Assembly (NCBI GenBank): GCA_001725155.1
Contig: MEFP01000015.1
Span: 1-64,000 of the forward strand
Direction of reading: 5' to 3'
Length of the DNA stretch: 64,000 bases
Origin: Lysobacteraceae bacterium SCN 69-320
GTDB taxonomy: Bacteria; Pseudomonadota; Gammaproteobacteria; Xanthomonadales; Rhodanobacteraceae
Shown: positions 41,661 through 64,000 of the stretch, piece by piece
Layout: the number at the start of each line of letters is the position of its first letter
How positions within the stretch are numbered: position 1 is the first letter of the stretch
Notes under the pieces: model-generated
The model's input: only the letters and a program-made list of their open reading frames with translations
Databases searched by the model: none
What the model was told of the DNA's origin: nothing
Position numbers and translations under genes: made by a program

Positions 41661-42188
41661 TCAGCTTCGCGCAACGACCGGTGTGGAAGCCTCGCCTGCC
41701 CACACCGCCAGCAGCGCCCGCGCCGCGCGCAGGTCGCGCTTGACCGTGGGGACGGAGATCGCCAGCGCCTCGGCGATCTGGTCGAGGTCGATGCCGACCA
41801 AGGTGTGCCATTCCAGCACCGCAGCCTTGCGCACATCGAGTTCGCGCAGGCGATCCAGTCCGTTGATCAGGTCGATCGCGTCGCCGGCACGGTCCGGCGG
41901 AGCCTCGATGCCGTCGTGCAGCGCCGCCGTTGCCACGCCTTCTCCACGCTTGCCGGTCCCGCGCGAGCGCTGGTGATCCAGGACGATCTGCCGCATCGCG
42001 AGCGCCGCCGTACGGAACAGATGCGCCCGGTCGACGCTGCAGTGCTCCCCGGCGTGCAGTTTCAGCCAGGCTTCGTGTACGAGCGCGGTCGTGTCGAGGG
42101 TGGCGCCGGCCAGGCGCAGGCGGCGCGCGCGCGTCTTCAGCTCCTGATACAGCGCAGCGAACAGGTCGGTGTCGAACGGCGAAGCCAT
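41661..42188 (-). CDS. ECF sigma factor of the kinase-linked type (module 1)
   Basis: 175 residues. Region 2 contains GATLDTTALVHEAWLKLHAG and the RAHLFRTAALAMRQIVLDHQ helix; region 4 contains LDQIAEALAISVPTVKRDLR. This 'TLDTTALVHEAW' pattern is the one of the ECF group found next to Ser/Thr kinases (ECF43 type), where the sigma factor itself is activated by phosphorylation instead of an anti-sigma factor, as in Xanthomonas citri (EcfK/PknS) and Vibrio (EcfP/PpkA2). The kinase gene is immediately upstream (35 nt). Assignment to that group is by eye. Confidence 0.9.
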   Translation of the reverse strand: MASPFDTDLFAALYQELKTRARRLRLAGATLDTTALVHEAWLKLHAGEHCSVDRAHLFRTAALAMRQIVLDHQRSRGTGKRGEGVATAALHDGIEAPPDRAGDAIDLINGLDRLRELDVRKAAVLEWHTLVGIDLDQIAEALAISVPTVKRDLRAARALLAVWAGEASTPVVARS

Positions 42189-56853: not shown

Positions 56854-57396
56854 ATGACCGAAGCGGGGGAAACGGCAGGCCCGCCACAGGGCGGCGATGC
56901 GCTGTTCGCGGCGGTCTATGCGCGGCTCAAGGCCATGGCCGGGCGCGCGCTGGACCGGGCTTCCAGCTCCACGCTCGACACCACGGCGCTTGTGCATGAG
57001 CTATACCTGCGCGTCGGCGCACGCGACGAGCTGCAGTTCGAGCATCCGCATCAGTTCTTCGCCTATGCGGCGCGGGCCATGCGCCATCTGCTGGCCGACC
57101 GCGCGCGCGACCGCCTGCGCCTGCGCGCCGGCGGCGACTGGCAGCGCGTCACCCTGAGCGGCGTCGACGACGGCCTGGCGCTGCATACCGGCGAACAGGC
57201 GCTGGCGCTGGACGCGGCGCTGCAGCGGCTGGAACAGATCGACGCGCGCGCCGCCCAGGTCGTCGAGCTGCGCTACTTCGCCGGCCTTACCCAGGAACAG
57301 ATCGGTGAACAGCTCGGCTGCACGCGGCGCACCGCCGATCGCGACTGGCGCTTCGCGCGGGCGTTCCTGAAGTCCGAGCTGCAGACGCAGGACTGA
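56854..57396 (+). CDS. ECF sigma factor of the kinase-linked type (module 2)
   Basis: 180 residues. Region 2 has SSTLDTTALVHELYLRVGAR and the HQFFAYAARAMRHLLADRAR helix; region 4 has GLTQEQIGEQLGCTRRTADR. It is a paralogue of the sigma factor in module 1, and both carry the TLDTTALVHE pattern of the ECF43-type group that works with a Ser/Thr kinase. GGAGGGG lies just before the ATG. The kinase gene follows after 70 nt, in which a candidate ECF promoter sits. Confidence 0.92.
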   Translation: MTEAGETAGPPQGGDALFAAVYARLKAMAGRALDRASSSTLDTTALVHELYLRVGARDELQFEHPHQFFAYAARAMRHLLADRARDRLRLRAGGDWQRVTLSGVDDGLALHTGEQALALDAALQRLEQIDARAAQVVELRYFAGLTQEQIGEQLGCTRRTADRDWRFARAFLKSELQTQD

Positions 57397-57405
57397 GCCG
57401 CGCGG

Positions 57406-57433
57406 TGTCGCAGCAGCACGTCGCCCGGCGTTC
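57406..57433 (+). promoter_or_regulatory. Candidate ECF promoter upstream of the module 2 kinase
   Basis: TGTCGCA (57406-57412), 16 nt, CGTTC (57429-57433), ending 33 nt before the kinase start. The same element with the same spacing precedes both beta-helix genes. Half-sites like TGTCxCA with CGTT or CGTC are typical ECF -35 and -10 sequences. Confidence 0.55.
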
Positions 57434-57466
57434 TGTTTTCCTCGGAGCCCTTGTTCCGGAGCCGGC

Positions 57467-60229
57467 ATGAACACCTCCGTCCCTTCCCTGCGCGACCTGT
57501 TCGAGGCCGTCTGCGAACTGGACGCGGCAGCGCGCGAGGCCTATCTCGCGACACAGTGCGCCGACGCTGCGCAGCGCGCCCAGATCGAGCGCCTGCTGGC
57601 CGCCGACAGTGATGCCGGCGACGGCGCGCTGGCCCAGGACGCGGTCGACGCCCTGCAGCTGCTCGGCGAAAGTGAGGATCCGACGTTCACGGCGGGCCGG
57701 CGCATCGGCCCATGGCAGCTGCTGGCGCTGCTCGGCGAAGGCGGTTCGTCCACGGTGTTCCGCGCCGAACGCGACGCGGCCGGCGTGCGCCAGGAGGTTG
57801 CGCTGAAGCTGCTGCGCCGCGGCCTCTACAGTTACGAGGCGCAGCGCCAGTTCCGCCGCGAGCGGCAGGCGCTGGCGGCGCTGAGCCATCCCGACATCGC
57901 CAGCCTGATCGAAGGCGGCGTCACCGAGCAGGGCCTGGCCTACATCGCGCTGGAACTCGTCGACGGCCAGGCCATCACCGACTACGCGCGCACGCGCAGC
58001 CTGGACCTGACCGCGCGCCTGCGCCTGTTCCTGCGCGTCTGCCGCGCGGTGGAGGCCGCGCACCGCGCGCTGATCGTGCATCGCGACCTCAAGCCGTCCA
58101 ACGTGCTGGTCAGCGCCGACGGCCACGTGAAGCTGCTGGACTTCGGCATCGCCAAGTTGCTCGACGCCGACGACGAGACACAGACCCGCCTGCCCGTGTT
58201 CACGCCGGCGTACGCGGCGCCGGAGCAGCGCCGCGGCGGCGCGGTCACGACGGCGACCGACGTCTATGCACTGGGCATCCTGCTCGGCGAACTGCTGACC
58301 GGCCAGCGTCCCGGCGACGGCCGCGCGCAGGCGCCGAGCGGCCAGGTCCGCGACGATGCCGCGCCGGGCCTGCTGCCGGCGCCGCCGCAGGCCATGCGCC
58401 GGCTGCTGCGCGGGGATCTGGACAACATCGTGCTCAAGGCCATCGCCGAGGAGCCCGAACAGCGCTATGCCAGTGCCGGTGCCCTGGCCGAGGACATCGA
58501 ACGCCTGCTCGACGGCCGGCCGGTCGCGGCGCATCCGCCGTCGCGCTGGTACCGCACGAAGAAATTCGTCGCCCGCCATCGCGGCGGCGTGGCCACGTCG
58601 GCGACATTCCTGCTCGCTCTGCTCGCCGCGCTCGGCCTCGCGCTGTGGCAGGCCAATGTCGCGCGCGACGAACTGCGCCGCGCCAACGCGATGCGCGACT
58701 TCATGGTCGTCGCGTTCCAGGAAGCGCAGCCGAGCTCACCGCGCGAGGGTCCGCCGCGCATCACCGAAGTGGTGGAGCAGGCCGTCGCCCGGGCGCGCAG
58801 CGATGCGCAAATGAATCCGCGCGCGCGCGCGGAGCTGCTGACCGAACTGGCGACGGTGCTGCGCATCCAGGGGCGTCTGGCCTCGGCGCGCGACCTGGCG
58901 CAGTGGAACTACGAGCAGGCGCAGCGCGAGTTCGGCGATGCCTCGCCGCTGTCCCTGGCCGCCGGCGGCGAGGCGGCCTATACGCTGTTCCTGCTCGGCG
59001 ACTTCGCCGAAGCGCGCACCCGCACGGACCGTCTGCTCGCGCAGTCGGCCGCGGCCGAAGCGCGTCTGCGCAGCCGCCTGCTGAGCTATTCCTCGGCGAT
59101 CGCGACCAAGGAGCACGACACCAGACGCGCCGTCGCCGACGTCGAGGACGCCGTCGCGCTCGCGCGCCGCAGCGGCGACGCGGCGCTGCTGTCCTGGATC
59201 CTGAGCTCGCAGTCGACCGTGCGGCTTGCCGCCGGCGACGCAGCCGGCGCGATCGACAGCCTGAAGGAACAGCTGGCGATCAACGAGCGGCTGTACGGAT
59301 CGCAGCACCTCAACGCGGCGTCGGTGCGCGCCGCGCTGTCGCGCGCCTATCGCCGCGTCGGCGATCTGCCGGCGGCCGAGCGCGAGATCCGCGCGGCGCT
59401 GGACATCGACGCGGCGGTGCTGCCGCGCGACGACTGGCGCCGCGCGCGTCATCTGAACGCACTGATGGTGCTGCAGCATGCGCAGCGCGATTTCGACGCG
59501 GCGCTGGCCTCGGGCCTGGAGTCGCTGCGTATCAACCGCATCGCCTATGCCGACGACCATCCCGAAATCGCCAACGACCTGGAAAACCTCGGCCGCCTGC
59601 AGCTGCAGCTCGAACAGCCGGCCGCGGCGCTGGAGCTGCTGCGCGAAGCACTGGCCCGCAACACCGCCAAGCTCGGCGCCGAACATGCGGACACGGCCGG
59701 CGTGCGCGCGAGCTACGGCGAAGCGCTCGCGCGCACCGGCGAACGCGCCGCCGGCGAAGCGGAACTGCGCCATGCGCTGACGTCGCTGCAAGCCGCACCG
59801 GATCGCGATGCCGAAGCGCGCGTCTGCGAGCAGTTCGCGCGCCTGTATCTGGACCTCGGCGACGCCGCGTCGGCGCTGCCGCTGCTCGACCGCATCGACA
59901 TGACCCTGGTGCCGGCGCTGAACGGCTTGGCCTATTGGGATGGCCGCAGCGGCGTGCTGCGCGGCGACGCCCTGCTGCTGCTGGGCCGCACCGCACAGGC
60001 CGGCGCGGTGCTGGCCGCGGCCGACGCCGCGCTGGCCGGCTCCAGGTCCGCCGATCCGGCGCTGCAGATCGAGGTCGCGCTGCGCCAGGCGCAGACAGCC
60101 CGGGCGCTCGGCGATGCCGCGGCGGCGCAACGCCAGGCCGCGCTCGGCCGCACGCGCCTGGCCGCGCTGCGCCATCCGCCCGGTCGCCTGCTGCGGCTCG
60201 CCGCGGAGCTGCCGGCCGCCGCGCCTTGA
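57467..60229 (+). CDS. Membrane Ser/Thr protein kinase with C-terminal TPR domain (module 2)
   Basis: 920 residues. N-terminal helical region 1-75 as in module 1; kinase domain about 80-355 with Lys114, HRDLKPSN at 205-212 (Asp207) and DFG at 225-227; one membrane helix at about 375-394 (TSATFLLALLAALGLALW). About 500 residues of helical repeats follow (ASARDLAQWNYEQAQREFGD, YADDHPEIANDLENLGRLQL), the tetratricopeptide form seen in extracellular sensor domains. It probably senses an envelope signal and phosphorylates the preceding sigma factor. The latter is known for related pairs and inferred here. Confidence 0.93.
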   Translation: MNTSVPSLRDLFEAVCELDAAAREAYLATQCADAAQRAQIERLLAADSDAGDGALAQDAVDALQLLGESEDPTFTAGRRIGPWQLLALLGEGGSSTVFRAERDAAGVRQEVALKLLRRGLYSYEAQRQFRRERQALAALSHPDIASLIEGGVTEQGLAYIALELVDGQAITDYARTRSLDLTARLRLFLRVCRAVEAAHRALIVHRDLKPSNVLVSADGHVKLLDFGIAKLLDADDETQTRLPVFTPAYAAPEQRRGGAVTTATDVYALGILLGELLTGQRPGDGRAQAPSGQVRDDAAPGLLPAPPQAMRRLLRGDLDNIVLKAIAEEPEQRYASAGALAEDIERLLDGRPVAAHPPSRWYRTKKFVARHRGGVATSATFLLALLAALGLALWQANVARDELRRANAMRDFMVVAFQEAQPSSPREGPPRITEVVEQAVARARSDAQMNPRARAELLTELATVLRIQGRLASARDLAQWNYEQAQREFGDASPLSLAAGGEAAYTLFLLGDFAEARTRTDRLLAQSAAAEARLRSRLLSYSSAIATKEHDTRRAVADVEDAVALARRSGDAALLSWILSSQSTVRLAAGDAAGAIDSLKEQLAINERLYGSQHLNAASVRAALSRAYRRVGDLPAAEREIRAALDIDAAVLPRDDWRRARHLNALMVLQHAQRDFDAALASGLESLRINRIAYADDHPEIANDLENLGRLQLQLEQPAAALELLREALARNTAKLGAEHADTAGVRASYGEALARTGERAAGEAELRHALTSLQAAPDRDAEARVCEQFARLYLDLGDAASALPLLDRIDMTLVPALNGLAYWDGRSGVLRGDALLLLGRTAQAGAVLAAADAALAGSRSADPALQIEVALRQAQTARALGDAAAAQRQAALGRTRLAALRHPPGRLLRLAAELPAAAP

Positions 60230-60249
60230 GCTAGTCGCCCGACGCCGCC

Positions 60250-60277
60250 TGTCGCAGTCCGGCTTCGGGCGGCGTTC
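60250..60277 (+). promoter_or_regulatory. Candidate ECF promoter upstream of beta-helix gene 1
   Basis: TGTCGCA (60250-60256), 16 nt, CGTTC (60273-60277), 41 nt before the start. The -10 part sits in GGCGGCGTTCCTCG (60268-60281), which recurs exactly before beta-helix gene 2. Confidence 0.6.
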
Positions 60278-60318
60278 CTCGGCGCTGCCCGGATTGCGGG
60301 CGTGTCGAGGGGTTTCCG

Positions 60319-62121
60319 ATGAAACGTCGCCTTTCCGCGTTGGCCGGCTGCCTGGCGCTGCTGTGGCTCGGCGGGCTGCCGGCGGCGGCGCTGGCCGCGG
60401 TGTTCACGGTCGGCGGCGCGACCGGCCCCGGGCTGTGCACGCATCCCAGCCTGCAATCGGCCATCGACGCGGCTGCCGCATCGTCGGGTCTGGACTTCAT
60501 CCGCCTCACGCGTGGCGCGTATGCGGCGCAACGCGTCGTCGTCAACGACAGCGGCGATCTGTCGATCGAAGGTGGCTATCTCGAATGCGCGGCGCCGGTG
60601 CGCGTGGACTACACGACGCTCGACGGCCAGGGCGCGAGCCCGCGCGGCCCGGTCATCACGCATCTGGGCGCCGGGCGCCTGACCCTGTCCGATCTGCAGA
60701 TCCGCAACGGCCATGCCTATGGCGCCGGCGCCAGCACGACCTTCGGCGGCGGCGTGTCGTCCTCGGGAACCGGCGCGCTGACGGTCTATCGCAGCCTCAT
60801 CTACAACAACACGGCCGGCAACGGCGGCGGCATCTACGCCGGCGCGAATGCGGGCCAGACCAAGGACGTGACGCTGGTCGGCGTCGGCTTCAATTCCAAC
60901 GGCGCAGCCGAAAGCGGCGGCGGCCTGTACGTGCTGCGCGGCGACGTGAAGATCACCGGCGACGACGTCAGCTACTTCGCTGCCAACCACGCCGACAGCG
61001 CCGACATCAATCACGGCGGCGGCGCGCTGTATGCACTCGACAGCATCGTGCGCATCGACGGCAAGCCGCCGGCGGCCTCGCCGTTCATGGACGGCAACAG
61101 CACCGCGTCCAACGGCGGCGCGATCCATTTCGCAAGCCTTTCGGCCGGCTGGCGTTCGCTGTGGATGGAGAACCGCATCGGCGGCGCTCCGCTGACGATC
61201 GCGAACAACGCCGCGACGCGCTTCGGCGGCGCGATCTATGTCCGCTCCACCGCGACCGGCGGTATCAACAACGCCGCCGTGACCCTGTACAACGGCATCG
61301 TAGCGGCCAACCGCGCCGGCGAAGGCAGCGCCTTCTATCTTTACGGCAACGGCAATGACAACGACAACGCCGCGTCCCTGACCCTGGCCTCGAGCGAACC
61401 CGGCCATGCCGCGCCGGCCTGCACCGCGGCGCAGCGCTGCAACCGCGTCGACGGCAACGTCAGTGGCCAGGGACCGACCATCGTGCTCGAACAGCTCGGC
61501 ACGCGCGGCCGCGCGAACCTGTTCTTCAAGCGCGGCCATCTGGTCAACAACAACGCCGTCAATGGCGGCGGCCTGATCCACGGCGACGGCTACGTCTTCA
61601 TCGACAACAGCGTCATCGGCAACAACGACGCCGGCAACTCGGCGCTGATCGGCAACAGCAGCGGCAGCATCTTCCAGATCCAGAACAGCACGGTCGCCGG
61701 CAACCTGCGCATCACGCCGAGCGTGTTCGCGCTGTACGCGACCGGCGGCACCCTGCGCCTGCACAACAGCATCGCGTTCCAGCCCGGCGCGCCGATCCAT
61801 CAGGCGGTTGCGGGCACGTCTGCCGATCTGCGCAACCTGCTGGTCGGCGACAGCCACGGCCTCAGCAACCTTGCCGCGCTGAACATCCAGCAGACGCCCG
61901 ATCCGCTGTTCGTCGATGCCGCGCAGGGCGATTTCCGCCTGCAGCAGGGCTCGCAGGCGATCAATCGCTGGTCGCCCGGCAATGGCGTGAATGTGCCGAC
62001 CGTCGACCTGCCCGGTGCGGCCCGGCCCGCGCCGCCGAGCGGCGCGCCGACGCCGTACGACTTCGGCGCCTACGAATTCGGCGCCGTGGTGGATCGGATT
62101 TTCGGTAACGGGTTTCAGTGA
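60319..62121 (+). CDS. Secreted right-handed beta-helix protein 1 (module 2)
   Basis: 600 residues. Signal peptide at 1-27 (ends ALAA), then AVFTVGGATGPGLCTHPSLQ with a paired-looking Cys. Parallel beta-helix coils rich in Gly and Asn fill 60-560 (NNTAGNGGGIYAGANAG, ESGGGLYVLRGDVKI, NAVNGGGLIHGDGYVFI). A short final part runs to YDFGAYEFGAVVDRIFGNGFQ. No catalytic residues of pectate lyases can be picked, so an adhesin or surface role is as likely as an enzyme. The end IFGNGFQ resembles the end of the module 1 secreted protein. GAGGGG lies before the ATG. Confidence 0.82.
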   Translation: MKRRLSALAGCLALLWLGGLPAAALAAVFTVGGATGPGLCTHPSLQSAIDAAAASSGLDFIRLTRGAYAAQRVVVNDSGDLSIEGGYLECAAPVRVDYTTLDGQGASPRGPVITHLGAGRLTLSDLQIRNGHAYGAGASTTFGGGVSSSGTGALTVYRSLIYNNTAGNGGGIYAGANAGQTKDVTLVGVGFNSNGAAESGGGLYVLRGDVKITGDDVSYFAANHADSADINHGGGALYALDSIVRIDGKPPAASPFMDGNSTASNGGAIHFASLSAGWRSLWMENRIGGAPLTIANNAATRFGGAIYVRSTATGGINNAAVTLYNGIVAANRAGEGSAFYLYGNGNDNDNAASLTLASSEPGHAAPACTAAQRCNRVDGNVSGQGPTIVLEQLGTRGRANLFFKRGHLVNNNAVNGGGLIHGDGYVFIDNSVIGNNDAGNSALIGNSSGSIFQIQNSTVAGNLRITPSVFALYATGGTLRLHNSIAFQPGAPIHQAVAGTSADLRNLLVGDSHGLSNLAALNIQQTPDPLFVDAAQGDFRLQQGSQAINRWSPGNGVNVPTVDLPGAARPAPPSGAPTPYDFGAYEFGAVVDRIFGNGFQ

Positions 62122-62346
62122 CCGGGCCGGCTTGCGCCGACGAATTTTCGGATGGTCGTTCAAGCCGCTCGCAATGTCGTGCTCGTCGTCGGGCGTGCAG
62201 CCAGGGAAACGCCGGCGCAGGAAGAGCACTTCGCCAGTCGCAGCGAACCGCCGGCAATCAACCCGGATTTCCTCGGCCGGATTCGTGCCCGATCAGTGAC
62301 TCGCTTCTCACCTGAAGCGACATCCCGCTCCTCACACGAAGCGCCA

Positions 62347-62374
62347 TGTCGCAAACCCGCGACAGGCGGCGTTC
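62347..62374 (+). promoter_or_regulatory. Candidate ECF promoter upstream of beta-helix gene 2
   Basis: TGTCGCA (62347-62353), 16 nt, CGTTC (62370-62374), 34 nt before the start. The flanking 14-nt GGCGGCGTTCCTCG (62365-62378) is identical to that before gene 1, while the 11 nt between TGTCGCA and that block differ. Confidence 0.6.
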
Positions 62375-62408
62375 CTCGCCGGTGCTCGCCATCTACAGGA
62401 GTTCGACC

Positions 62409-64000
62409 ATGCTTCGCTGTATCCCGCCTGCGACGACTGCGCCGCGCCTTGCCGCGTCGGCGACCCTGCTGTTTCTGTTCGCGACGGCGTCCGCGCCGGC
62501 TGCGGTGTTCACCGTCGGCACGCCGGTCGGTCCCGGCCAGTGCACTCACGGCACCATCCAGTCGGCGATCAACGCGGCCGAGTCCAGCCCCGGCGCCGAT
62601 ACCGTGCGCCTGACGCGTTCGCTGACCTACGAACCCGAAGCGAACTCGGTCAACACCGCCCAGGAACTCACGATCGAAGGCGGTTACGCCAACTGCACCG
62701 CGGCCTTCGACGGCACCTATACCACCGTCAGCGGCGCCGGCGGCGCCACCGAACCGGTGTTCCGCATCACCGGCAACACCGGCGCGCTGATACGCCTGCG
62801 CTACCTGACGATCAGCGGCGGCGACGAGGACGGCGCCGGCAAGGGCGGCGGCATCTATTTCCGCGGCGACGGTCTGCTCGACGTCAGCAACAGCAACATC
62901 CGCCAGAACACCGCCGGCAACGGCGGCGGCATCTACGCCGAGGGCACCGGCACGAACGCCGAGCTCGCGATCGGCGCGAACGTGAACGTCAGCAACAACA
63001 TCGCCCGCTACAACGGCGGCGGCATCGTGGCTGACCAGATCGAGATGACGATGCTGACGTCCGACAGCGCGATCTTCTTCAACGAAGCGCAGGGCCTCGG
63101 CGGTACCGGCGGCCGCGGCGGCGGCCTGTATGTCTATTCGGCGGGCCTGTCGAGCTACGCCACGATCGGCAGCGGCAGCTCTCTCGGTGCGATCTTCGGC
63201 AATCGCGCGCTGTACGGCGGCGGCGCAGCCGTCGGCGGATCGCCTTCGGGTAATGGCCCCACCTCGTTGCTGAAGGTCTATGCGACGGCGGCGGGGCGCC
63301 CGGCCGTGCTGTCGGGCAACATCGCCTCGGTGGCCGGCGGCGGTATCTACGTGCGCTCCGAAGACAGTCTGACCAGCGGAGGCGTTTTCTCCAGAGCGCA
63401 GCTGTTCAATGCCTCGCTGCAGAACAACAGCGCGCCGCAGGGCGCTGCCGTGCAGGTGCAGGGATCGGACACGGCCGTGCTGGTCGAGGAGTACGCCGAG
63501 TTCACGTTCAACAGCGGCAGCTGGCCGGGAGACGCCGCCCCCTGCGCCATCGACGTCCCCTGCGGCCGCATCGTCAACAACACGGCCGAGGACGCCGGCG
63601 GACAGCCGACCCAGGGCGCCATCCTGAATGCCGAGCACGATACGTTCCTGCAGCTGGGCAGCCCCGGCCGCGGCATCTTCCTGCAGGGCAATCGCGGCGG
63701 CCGTCTGATCGCCGCCAGCACCGGCGACGGCTACAGCCCGGTCGCGTTGCGGGCGGCGCTGGTCACCGGCAACACCGTCAGCCAGCAGCTGATCCAGGCC
63801 TCCGGCGGCGACGTGCTGGCCGTGACCGATTCCACCATCACCGGCAACCTCGTCAGTGGCAGCAGCGTGCTCGCGGCGACCGACAAGGACGTGCAGCTGC
63901 TGCGCTCCATCCTCTGGCAGCCCGGCGTGAGCCTGCTGTCGCGCAGCGGCGGCAGCCTGAGCACGGGCTCGATCGACGCCAGCGACAACGCCAGCCTCGG
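62409..64000 (+). CDS. Secreted right-handed beta-helix protein 2, C-terminus cut by right edge
   Basis: At least 530 residues, open to the window end. Signal peptide at 1-32, then AAVFTVGTPVGPGQCTHGTI, a close match to beta-helix protein 1 (VGGATGPGLCTHPSLQ). Gly/Asn-rich helix coils follow (GAGKGGGIYFRGDGLLDVS, NNIARYNGGGIVADQIEM). It is a diverged tandem paralogue that keeps the same N-terminal cap. AGGAG lies eight bases before the ATG at 62409. Whether it ends in the IFxxGF-like tag cannot be seen. Confidence 0.8.
   Translation, partial: MLRCIPPATTAPRLAASATLLFLFATASAPAAVFTVGTPVGPGQCTHGTIQSAINAAESSPGADTVRLTRSLTYEPEANSVNTAQELTIEGGYANCTAAFDGTYTTVSGAGGATEPVFRITGNTGALIRLRYLTISGGDEDGAGKGGGIYFRGDGLLDVSNSNIRQNTAGNGGGIYAEGTGTNAELAIGANVNVSNNIARYNGGGIVADQIEMTMLTSDSAIFFNEAQGLGGTGGRGGGLYVYSAGLSSYATIGSGSSLGAIFGNRALYGGGAAVGGSPSGNGPTSLLKVYATAAGRPAVLSGNIASVAGGGIYVRSEDSLTSGGVFSRAQLFNASLQNNSAPQGAAVQVQGSDTAVLVEEYAEFTFNSGSWPGDAAPCAIDVPCGRIVNNTAEDAGGQPTQGAILNAEHDTFLQLGSPGRGIFLQGNRGGRLIAASTGDGYSPVALRAALVTGNTVSQQLIQASGGDVLAVTDSTITGNLVSGSSVLAATDKDVQLLRSILWQPGVSLLSRSGGSLSTGSIDASDNASL

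Follow-up and report, generated by a model that had tools for sequence, protein, structure and literature searches.

Group ECF43 of the extracytoplasmic function (ECF) sigma factors, which we take to be the PF07638/TIGR02999 type, includes EcfK of Xanthomonas citri and EcfP of Vibrio parahaemolyticus, whose partner kinases are PknS and PknT. The available text of PMC13147305 gives QTTA as the consensus of region 2.2 in this group, with QATE in EcfK, and proposes that phosphorylation of the threonine restores the charge needed for polymerase binding; as a contrast to this proposal, it reports that EcfK T51A restored predation resistance in an earlier study. In EcfP, the corresponding motif is STTA, according to the available part of PMC8103513. 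Here we analyze a stretch of 64,000 nucleotides from Lysobacteraceae bacterium SCN 69-320 (contig MEFP01000015.1, positions 1 to 64,000, forward strand; hereafter the window), in which an ECF43-like sigma gene is followed by a kinase gene and two β-helix genes, each of these three preceded by the bipartite element TGTCGCA-N16-CGTTC. We consider it highly probable that the three elements are promoters read by the neighboring sigma factor, which would thus drive its own kinase and secreted effectors, and not itself. The features of the locus are as follows:

56854..57396, plus strand: ECF sigma factor, 180 aa, ECF43-like (PF07638, TIGR02999)
57406..57433, plus strand: putative promoter element 1 (TGTCGCA-N16-CGTTC), in the sigma-kinase gap; same place and form in relatives
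57467..60229, plus strand: Hanks-type Ser/Thr kinase, 920 aa (Pkinase 133.7 bits, kinase domain 85-288)
60250..60277, plus strand: putative promoter element 2 (TGTCGCA-N16-CGTTC), upstream of β-helix gene 1
60319..62121, plus strand: predicted secreted β-helix protein 1, 600 aa, predicted β-solenoid
62347..62374, plus strand: putative promoter element 3 (TGTCGCA-N16-CGTTC), upstream of β-helix gene 2
62409..64000, plus strand: predicted secreted β-helix protein 2, 779 aa; start inside the window, gene ends at contig position 64748

The window holds exactly three exact copies of TGTCGCA-N16-CGTTC, all on the plus strand, where 0.02 are expected from shuffles of the window; the coordinates, exactness and N16 spacing of the original prediction are thus borne out. 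Spacing 16 yields three matches on the plus and none on the minus strand, and all other spacings from 10 to 22 yield none. From the end of CGTTC to the ATG, we count 33 nt (kinase), 41 nt (β-helix 1) and 34 nt (β-helix 2), as predicted. The three spacers differ, as had also been claimed, but elements 2 and 3 have a longer 3' stretch of the spacer in common, GGCGGCGTTCCTCG. A matrix trained on other genomes only places the three elements at ranks 1-3 in the 64 kb, both strands scanned, with scores of 30.4, 25.5 and 16.1 bits; element 1 scores lowest, and the fourth-ranked site follows at 15.4 bits, 0.7 bits below it. Read as promoters, the elements would consist of a −35 TGTCGCA, a fixed 16-nt spacer ending in GG and a −10 CGTT. 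Their bipartite −35/−10 form, fixed spacing, CGT-type −10 and orientation toward genes are those of ECF-type promoters.

Matches to the sigma factor were found in 73 of 99 genomes searched (own included). A scan of GTDB genomes with an alignment of 15 sigma sequences gave 79 named loci, taken from the best 80 of 85 matches and comprising 1,150,047 bases, mostly from Rhodanobacteraceae and other Lysobacterales; these are partly non-independent, in that some share one genome and some repeat genomes of the 99-genome search. Among 18 stretches from relatives, six hold 10 exact copies of TGTCGCA-N16-CGTT, nine of which precede kinase or β-helix genes, and several of the remaining stretches carry near-copies with the same spacing. 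In the 79 loci, TGTCGCA-Nd-CGTT matches 39 times on the plus and once on the minus strand at d=16; for the 17 other values of d between 8 and 25, the counts are 0-1 (plus) and 0-2 (minus) each. With letter-shuffled word pairs, N16 matches number 0.37 on average and 7 at most. Both the place and the N16 spacing are conserved among relatives. The 39 sites comprise 16 between the sigma and kinase genes, 14 whose distance to a β-helix match downstream is below 260 nt, and nine at other places. Some of these nine are upstream of cytochrome-like (L113), small DUF4242-like (L125), NnrU-like (L134) and propeller (L138) proteins, where L138 matches DUF5122, L113 and L134 are named via scanned look-alikes (L105 and L101, respectively) and L125 was assigned by eye; at others, our crude caller of open reading frames called no gene.

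We built a motif model by expectation maximization, seeded with the motif of the original prediction, from 77 sigma-kinase gaps (two of the 79 loci were too short) and 43 regions upstream of β-helix genes. The resulting consensus is ATGTCgCAa...cGGcGTT for the gaps and ATGTC.CAat...CggCGTTccTC for the β-helix regions. Sites of at least 15 bits are present in 54 of the 77 gaps and in 33 of the 43 β-helix upstream regions, both scores being in-sample, compared to a background of 40 in 3000 random 150-mers from the same loci. These figures support the predicted feedback onto the kinase and the predicted secreted β-helix targets. By contrast, the 150 nt preceding the estimated start of the sigma gene contain no site of at least 15 bits in any of the 77 loci. 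In this family of kinase-linked sigma factors, the kinase gene would thus apparently be autoregulated and the sigma gene not; since the latter seems to lack such a promoter, feedback would run through the kinase.

The location of the elements a few tens of nucleotides before start codons, along with a weak terminator-like hairpin and T-run overlapping element 1, would also fit a structured RNA leader or a terminator/attenuator with which the transcripts would begin. We regard this as very improbable, as the spacer is mostly of low information and the spacing is 16 whatever the spacer. A common RNA structure was rejected, RNAalifold finding none over 83 distinct sites (0.0 kcal/mol).

If the elements are promoters read by one protein, the two promoters of a locus are expected to change together, and this is what we observe. 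For 30 loci in which the kinase and the β-helix site each score at least 9 bits, with one pair per locus, the summed Hamming distance between −35 heptamers within loci was 31, compared to 65.7 ± 4.7 for permuted pairs; none of 10000 permutations came down to 31. Restricting the comparison to the 21 loci in which one or both heptamers depart from the consensus gave 31 against 57.2 permuted; shared heptamers include TGACACA (L118), TGTCCCG (L151, L153), TGTCCCC (L155) and TGATCCG (L140). The −10 tetramers were likewise closer within loci (4 vs 6.6 ± 0.7 permuted).

To relate promoters to their sigma factors, we compared 117 variable columns of 59 sigmas (58 from loci with sites of at least 12 bits, and that of the window) with the promoter positions. 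For −35 position 3, the most strongly linked column was that of R159, a recognition-helix residue; for the first −10 base it was that of D82 (region 2.3/2.4), and for −35 position 5, by z-score, that of Q147. Residues RR at 158-159 are accompanied by T at −35 position 3 in 44 of 45 cases, and 11 of the 14 sigmas with another pair have A or G there. In a scan blind to the first −10 base, D82 sigmas had C in 71 cases and another base in 2, and N82 sigmas had C in 0 and another base in 41, a split that holds in kinase and other promoters alike, although these are counts of sequences and stand for few independent events. According to the available part of PMC6411747, N92 of M. tuberculosis SigH hydrogen-bonds at the −11 pair, beside the first −10 base, and D82 would match this residue in our register, which we read from conserved residues and not from a structural alignment. 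Searched against solved structures, the sigma alignment matched only SigK, and weakly (4nqw, E 0.007). The conserved place and spacing, the covariation between promoters and the matching changes in DNA-contact residues all support the reading of the elements as ECF promoters and their assignment to the neighboring kinase-linked sigma factor.

A real promoter might nevertheless be read by a different sigma factor, such as another ECF43-like paralogue. The own genome has 23 matches to the sigma family, namely the window sigma and 22 relatives at no more than 50% identity, and distant loci with about 52-55% identity (L166, L168, L170, L171) carry sites resembling TGTCGCN-N16-CGTT/CGCT. Yet the −35 changes track region 4, and the −10 change region 2, of the adjoining sigma, and the recognition-helix pattern RRTxDRDW and the stretch HLLxDRARDR are found in none of the 21 paralogues aligned from the own genome (the weakest of the 22 was left out). 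Further, in 15 genomes with a sigma match of at least 58% identity (own included, and G069, at 59%, left out of 16 such genomes), TGTCGCAN16CGTT occurs 71 times against 27 in controls, whereas the seven other genomes of the same genus, whose best sigma match is at 48-56% identity, have 24 against 25 (Fisher p 0.006, and 0.056 without G022, which alone contributes 24 of the 71 against 5 in its control). In G022, 10 of the 24 sites, judged by eye, precede genes for kinase-like (2) or exported proteins (8), scattered over the genome; the latter comprise β-helix-like, propeller- or RCC1-like repeat, cupredoxin-like and other proteins. We conclude that another paralogue is an unlikely reader of the element, with a slim chance at most.

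Being bipartite, conserved and repeated, the element could also be bound by a transcription factor distinct from the sigma, or be a dispersed repeat. This strikes us as scarcely plausible: the element has no inverted repeat and a typical ECF −10, its spacers are unrelated, it covaries with the sigma contact residues, and sites of at least 18 bits in the 79 loci lie 109 times on the sigma strand and 6 times on the other, a bias measured in-sample.

The genome-wide scan outlined in the original prediction was only partly favorable in the own genome. The extended form TGTCGCAN14GGCGTT has four exact occurrences in the own genome, the three of the window and one at C8:261843, and 23 with at most one mismatch, against 13 in the control; TGTCGCAN16CGTT occurs 8 times against 4. 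Downstream of the site at C8:261843, at a distance of 136 nt, is the likely ATG of a 947-residue protein with a signal-like start and matches to PD40 and DUF11. Among 20 loci with at most one mismatch, we found no further convincing target, using a crude script whose filter missed the gene behind C8:261843. The loose form TGTCGCAN14-18CGTT shows no excess (19 vs 18 in the reversed control); most of its matches fall within long open frames, a criterion that is a weak test at this G+C content.

The lack of excess of the loose motif is one of several points that weigh against our interpretation. Spacers, which served as a control in the promoter-pair comparison, are also slightly closer within loci (267 vs 299 ± 9.5, 1 of 10000 permutations), which points to common base composition or ancestry. 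On the sigma tree, built from 133 columns, D82 and the first −10 base have each changed just twice, and its well-supported branches are so few that sign tests on them had no power. As a group, recognition-helix columns are not significantly above the others for the −35 core (p=0.12), and −35 positions 1, 4, 6 and 7 link best, by z-score, to columns outside the helix. The gap and β-helix scores come from the training sets of a matrix seeded with the predicted motif, and 23 of the 77 gaps have no site of at least 15 bits, including some with sigmas of 62-70% identity (L123, L130). To these points may be added the hairpin over element 1 and the seven same-genus genomes, which lack a close sigma orthologue, identities reaching up to 73% outside the genus.

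Several other genera have orthologues of the window sigma at 63-73% identity, compared to 48-56% in the same-genus genomes, and this uneven presence of the locus (56854-64000) could result from horizontal gain or from repeated loss. The seven same-genus genomes have 17-29 matches each to the sigma family. In the window itself, there is a second ECF43-like sigma gene at 41709-42167 on the minus strand, with 38% identity.

The sigmas with N82, mostly from Rhodanobacter and Frateuria, are associated with a variant of the element, GGTCGCA or CGTCGCA-N16-GGTT, before the kinase. BGTCGCAN14GGGGTT occurs exactly once in each of four N82 genomes, before the kinase, with one reversed-control match over the four together, whereas six genomes without a sigma match contain one in all (control 2). 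The first −10 base in N82 loci is mostly G in kinase promoters (19 of 21) and T in other promoters (20 of 20). A second site, TGTCGCA-N16-TGTT, is located 2.8-3.6 kb downstream of the sigma gene in all 15 N82 loci examined, which were picked from 24 N82 sigmas. Open reading frames were listed in six of the 15: in five (L100, L101, L105, L112, L146), the second site is near the start of a protein of 478-515 residues with a signal-like N-terminus, and in the sixth (L132), no open reading frame was called there. The downstream protein of L105 matches CCP_MauG and RoxA-like cytochrome domains.

In G022, there is no kinase relative within 15 kb around the sigma orthologue (G022:C2:1743847); a kinase-like gene elsewhere in that genome (L184, G022:C2:2168292; by eye) still has the element, 10 nt upstream of its start. 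L187-L189 (G022:C2, about 3.01-3.05 Mb) form a cluster of TGTCGCA-N16-CGTT sites with a different −10 flank, mostly TT or CT ahead of CGTT, and with a further sigma relative nearby, together with a kinase-like gene and genes for exported proteins; this may be a second regulon with its own code. Four sites in two same-genus genomes (G003:C2:59419, G003:C14:187222, G007:C14:375754 and G007:C23:504636) share TGTCGCA...AACGTCGTT and are perhaps promoters of another sigma paralogue.

The sigma protein scores well above cut-off with PF07638 (137.1 bits, cut-off 21.1) and TIGR02999 (167.7 bits, cut-off 126.15). By our placement of the regions, it has LDTTALVHE in region 2.2, HLLADRARDR in region 2.3/2.4 and CTRRTADRDW in the recognition helix. 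The threonine of the DTTA motif, T44, is conserved in 78 of 78 aligned sigmas and would correspond to T51 of EcfK in our alignment. The TIGR02999 match extends to residue 176 of 180 and we found no further domain, hence no C-terminal extension of the ECF41 type. The kinase has the P-loop, HRDLKPSN, DFG and APE motifs, C-terminal TPR matches and one hydrophobic segment at about residues 373-399; this arrangement suggests that it probably spans the membrane with a sensor outside.

Both β-helix proteins have signal-like N-termini. The predicted structure of β-helix 1, obtained with 30 sequences, is a confident β-solenoid (mean pLDDT 86.8) with the last 11 residues disordered, and residues 538-587 resemble a choice-of-anchor-Q region (24.6 bits, just under the cut-off of 25). 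In Foldseek searches, the model had five PDB matches with E < 0.001, to PL6 alginate lyase, two chains of Rhombotarget A, lacto-N-biosidase LnbX and a phage tailspike. All are weak, with TM-scores of 0.21-0.35 (by query length) and 12-14% identity, so that no catalytic role can be assigned to β-helix 1; a role of these proteins at the surface is conceivable. Both proteins terminate in IFxNGFQ-stop (window 62098-62121; contig position 64725-64748), an ending that resembles a C-terminal tail for sorting or anchoring. At the DNA level, the pattern encoding IFx(N/D)GF(E/Q) and then TRR has 11 copies in the own genome and is present in 9 of 11 genomes searched, with no match of the reversed control in any of the 11. 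All 30 tail-pattern loci examined (L214-L243) close open frames of at least 182 codons, mostly unlike each other in the preceding sequence; three, all from G011, resemble one another. No NCBIfam model matched at the tail in five proteins scanned, four of them β-helix proteins.

By analogy to EcfK/PknS and EcfP/PknT, we propose that a signal would activate the kinase, which would phosphorylate the sigma factor around T44. Together with RNA polymerase, the phosphorylated sigma could then recognize TGTCGCA-N16-CGTT, switching on the secreted β-helix proteins and raising the amount of its own activating kinase, a positive feedback in which the sigma gene itself would remain outside the loop. With modest confidence, we favor a broader view, in which about 20 or more ECF43-like sigmas of some Lysobacterales would be kept apart by a simple code: residue 82 (D or N) would set C or not-C at the first −10 base, and residues 158/159 would set T or A/G at −35 position 3, with the sigma and its kinase and effector promoters changing together, kinase feedback without sigma autoregulation, and dedicated secreted-protein outputs.

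According to the available part of PMC8103513, ECF target promoters are predicted from known sigma/promoter pairs and from sigmas that drive their own genes. As the present group apparently lacks self-driving, its targets would escape prediction based on autoregulation. The loci supply dozens of sigma factors of a kinase-linked group with matched promoters, as well as a testable residue-to-base code. They also point to a likely output for one of the genome's 23 sigma relatives, namely secreted β-helix and further exported proteins.

In the available texts on ECF43, EcfK/PknS and EcfP/PknT (parts of PMC13147305, PMC8999054, PMC8103513, PMC6653060, PMC3426412 and PMC6411747, a set without the main classification paper and the EcfP and EcfK discovery papers), we found no report of the promoter described here and saw no target promoter motif of ECF43 systems. 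The locus resembles EcfK/PknS and EcfP/PknT in that the sigma gene adjoins a gene for a transmembrane Ser/Thr kinase, predicted as such in our case, and in that the acidic DxxD of region 2.2 has given way to a threonine-bearing motif, here DTTA. It differs from the QTTA consensus in keeping the first aspartate of DxxD, as do 62 of 78 related sigmas, and from the outputs given in the available texts, a type VI secretion system and polymyxin resistance, in that these would here be secreted β-helix and other proteins. Among β-helix proteins, the model of β-helix 1 is reminiscent of Rhombotarget A and other right-handed β-helix surface proteins, from which the low TM-scores and identities set it apart; the β-helix homologue of L107 has a weak GlyGly_RbtA match (16.4 bits, cut-off 295). 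The element itself is closest to the ECF41 promoter, TGTCACA-n16-CGTC (Wecke et al. 2012, PMC3426412, available part), which likewise has a seven-base −35 starting with TGTC, a spacer of 16 ± 1 bp and a −10 of CGTC/TGTT. ECF41 sigmas, however, have a fused C-terminal regulatory domain, whereas the window sigma has nothing beyond region 4 and its gene neighbors that of a kinase; the likeness of the promoters is one of convergence or common ancestry, and not of membership.

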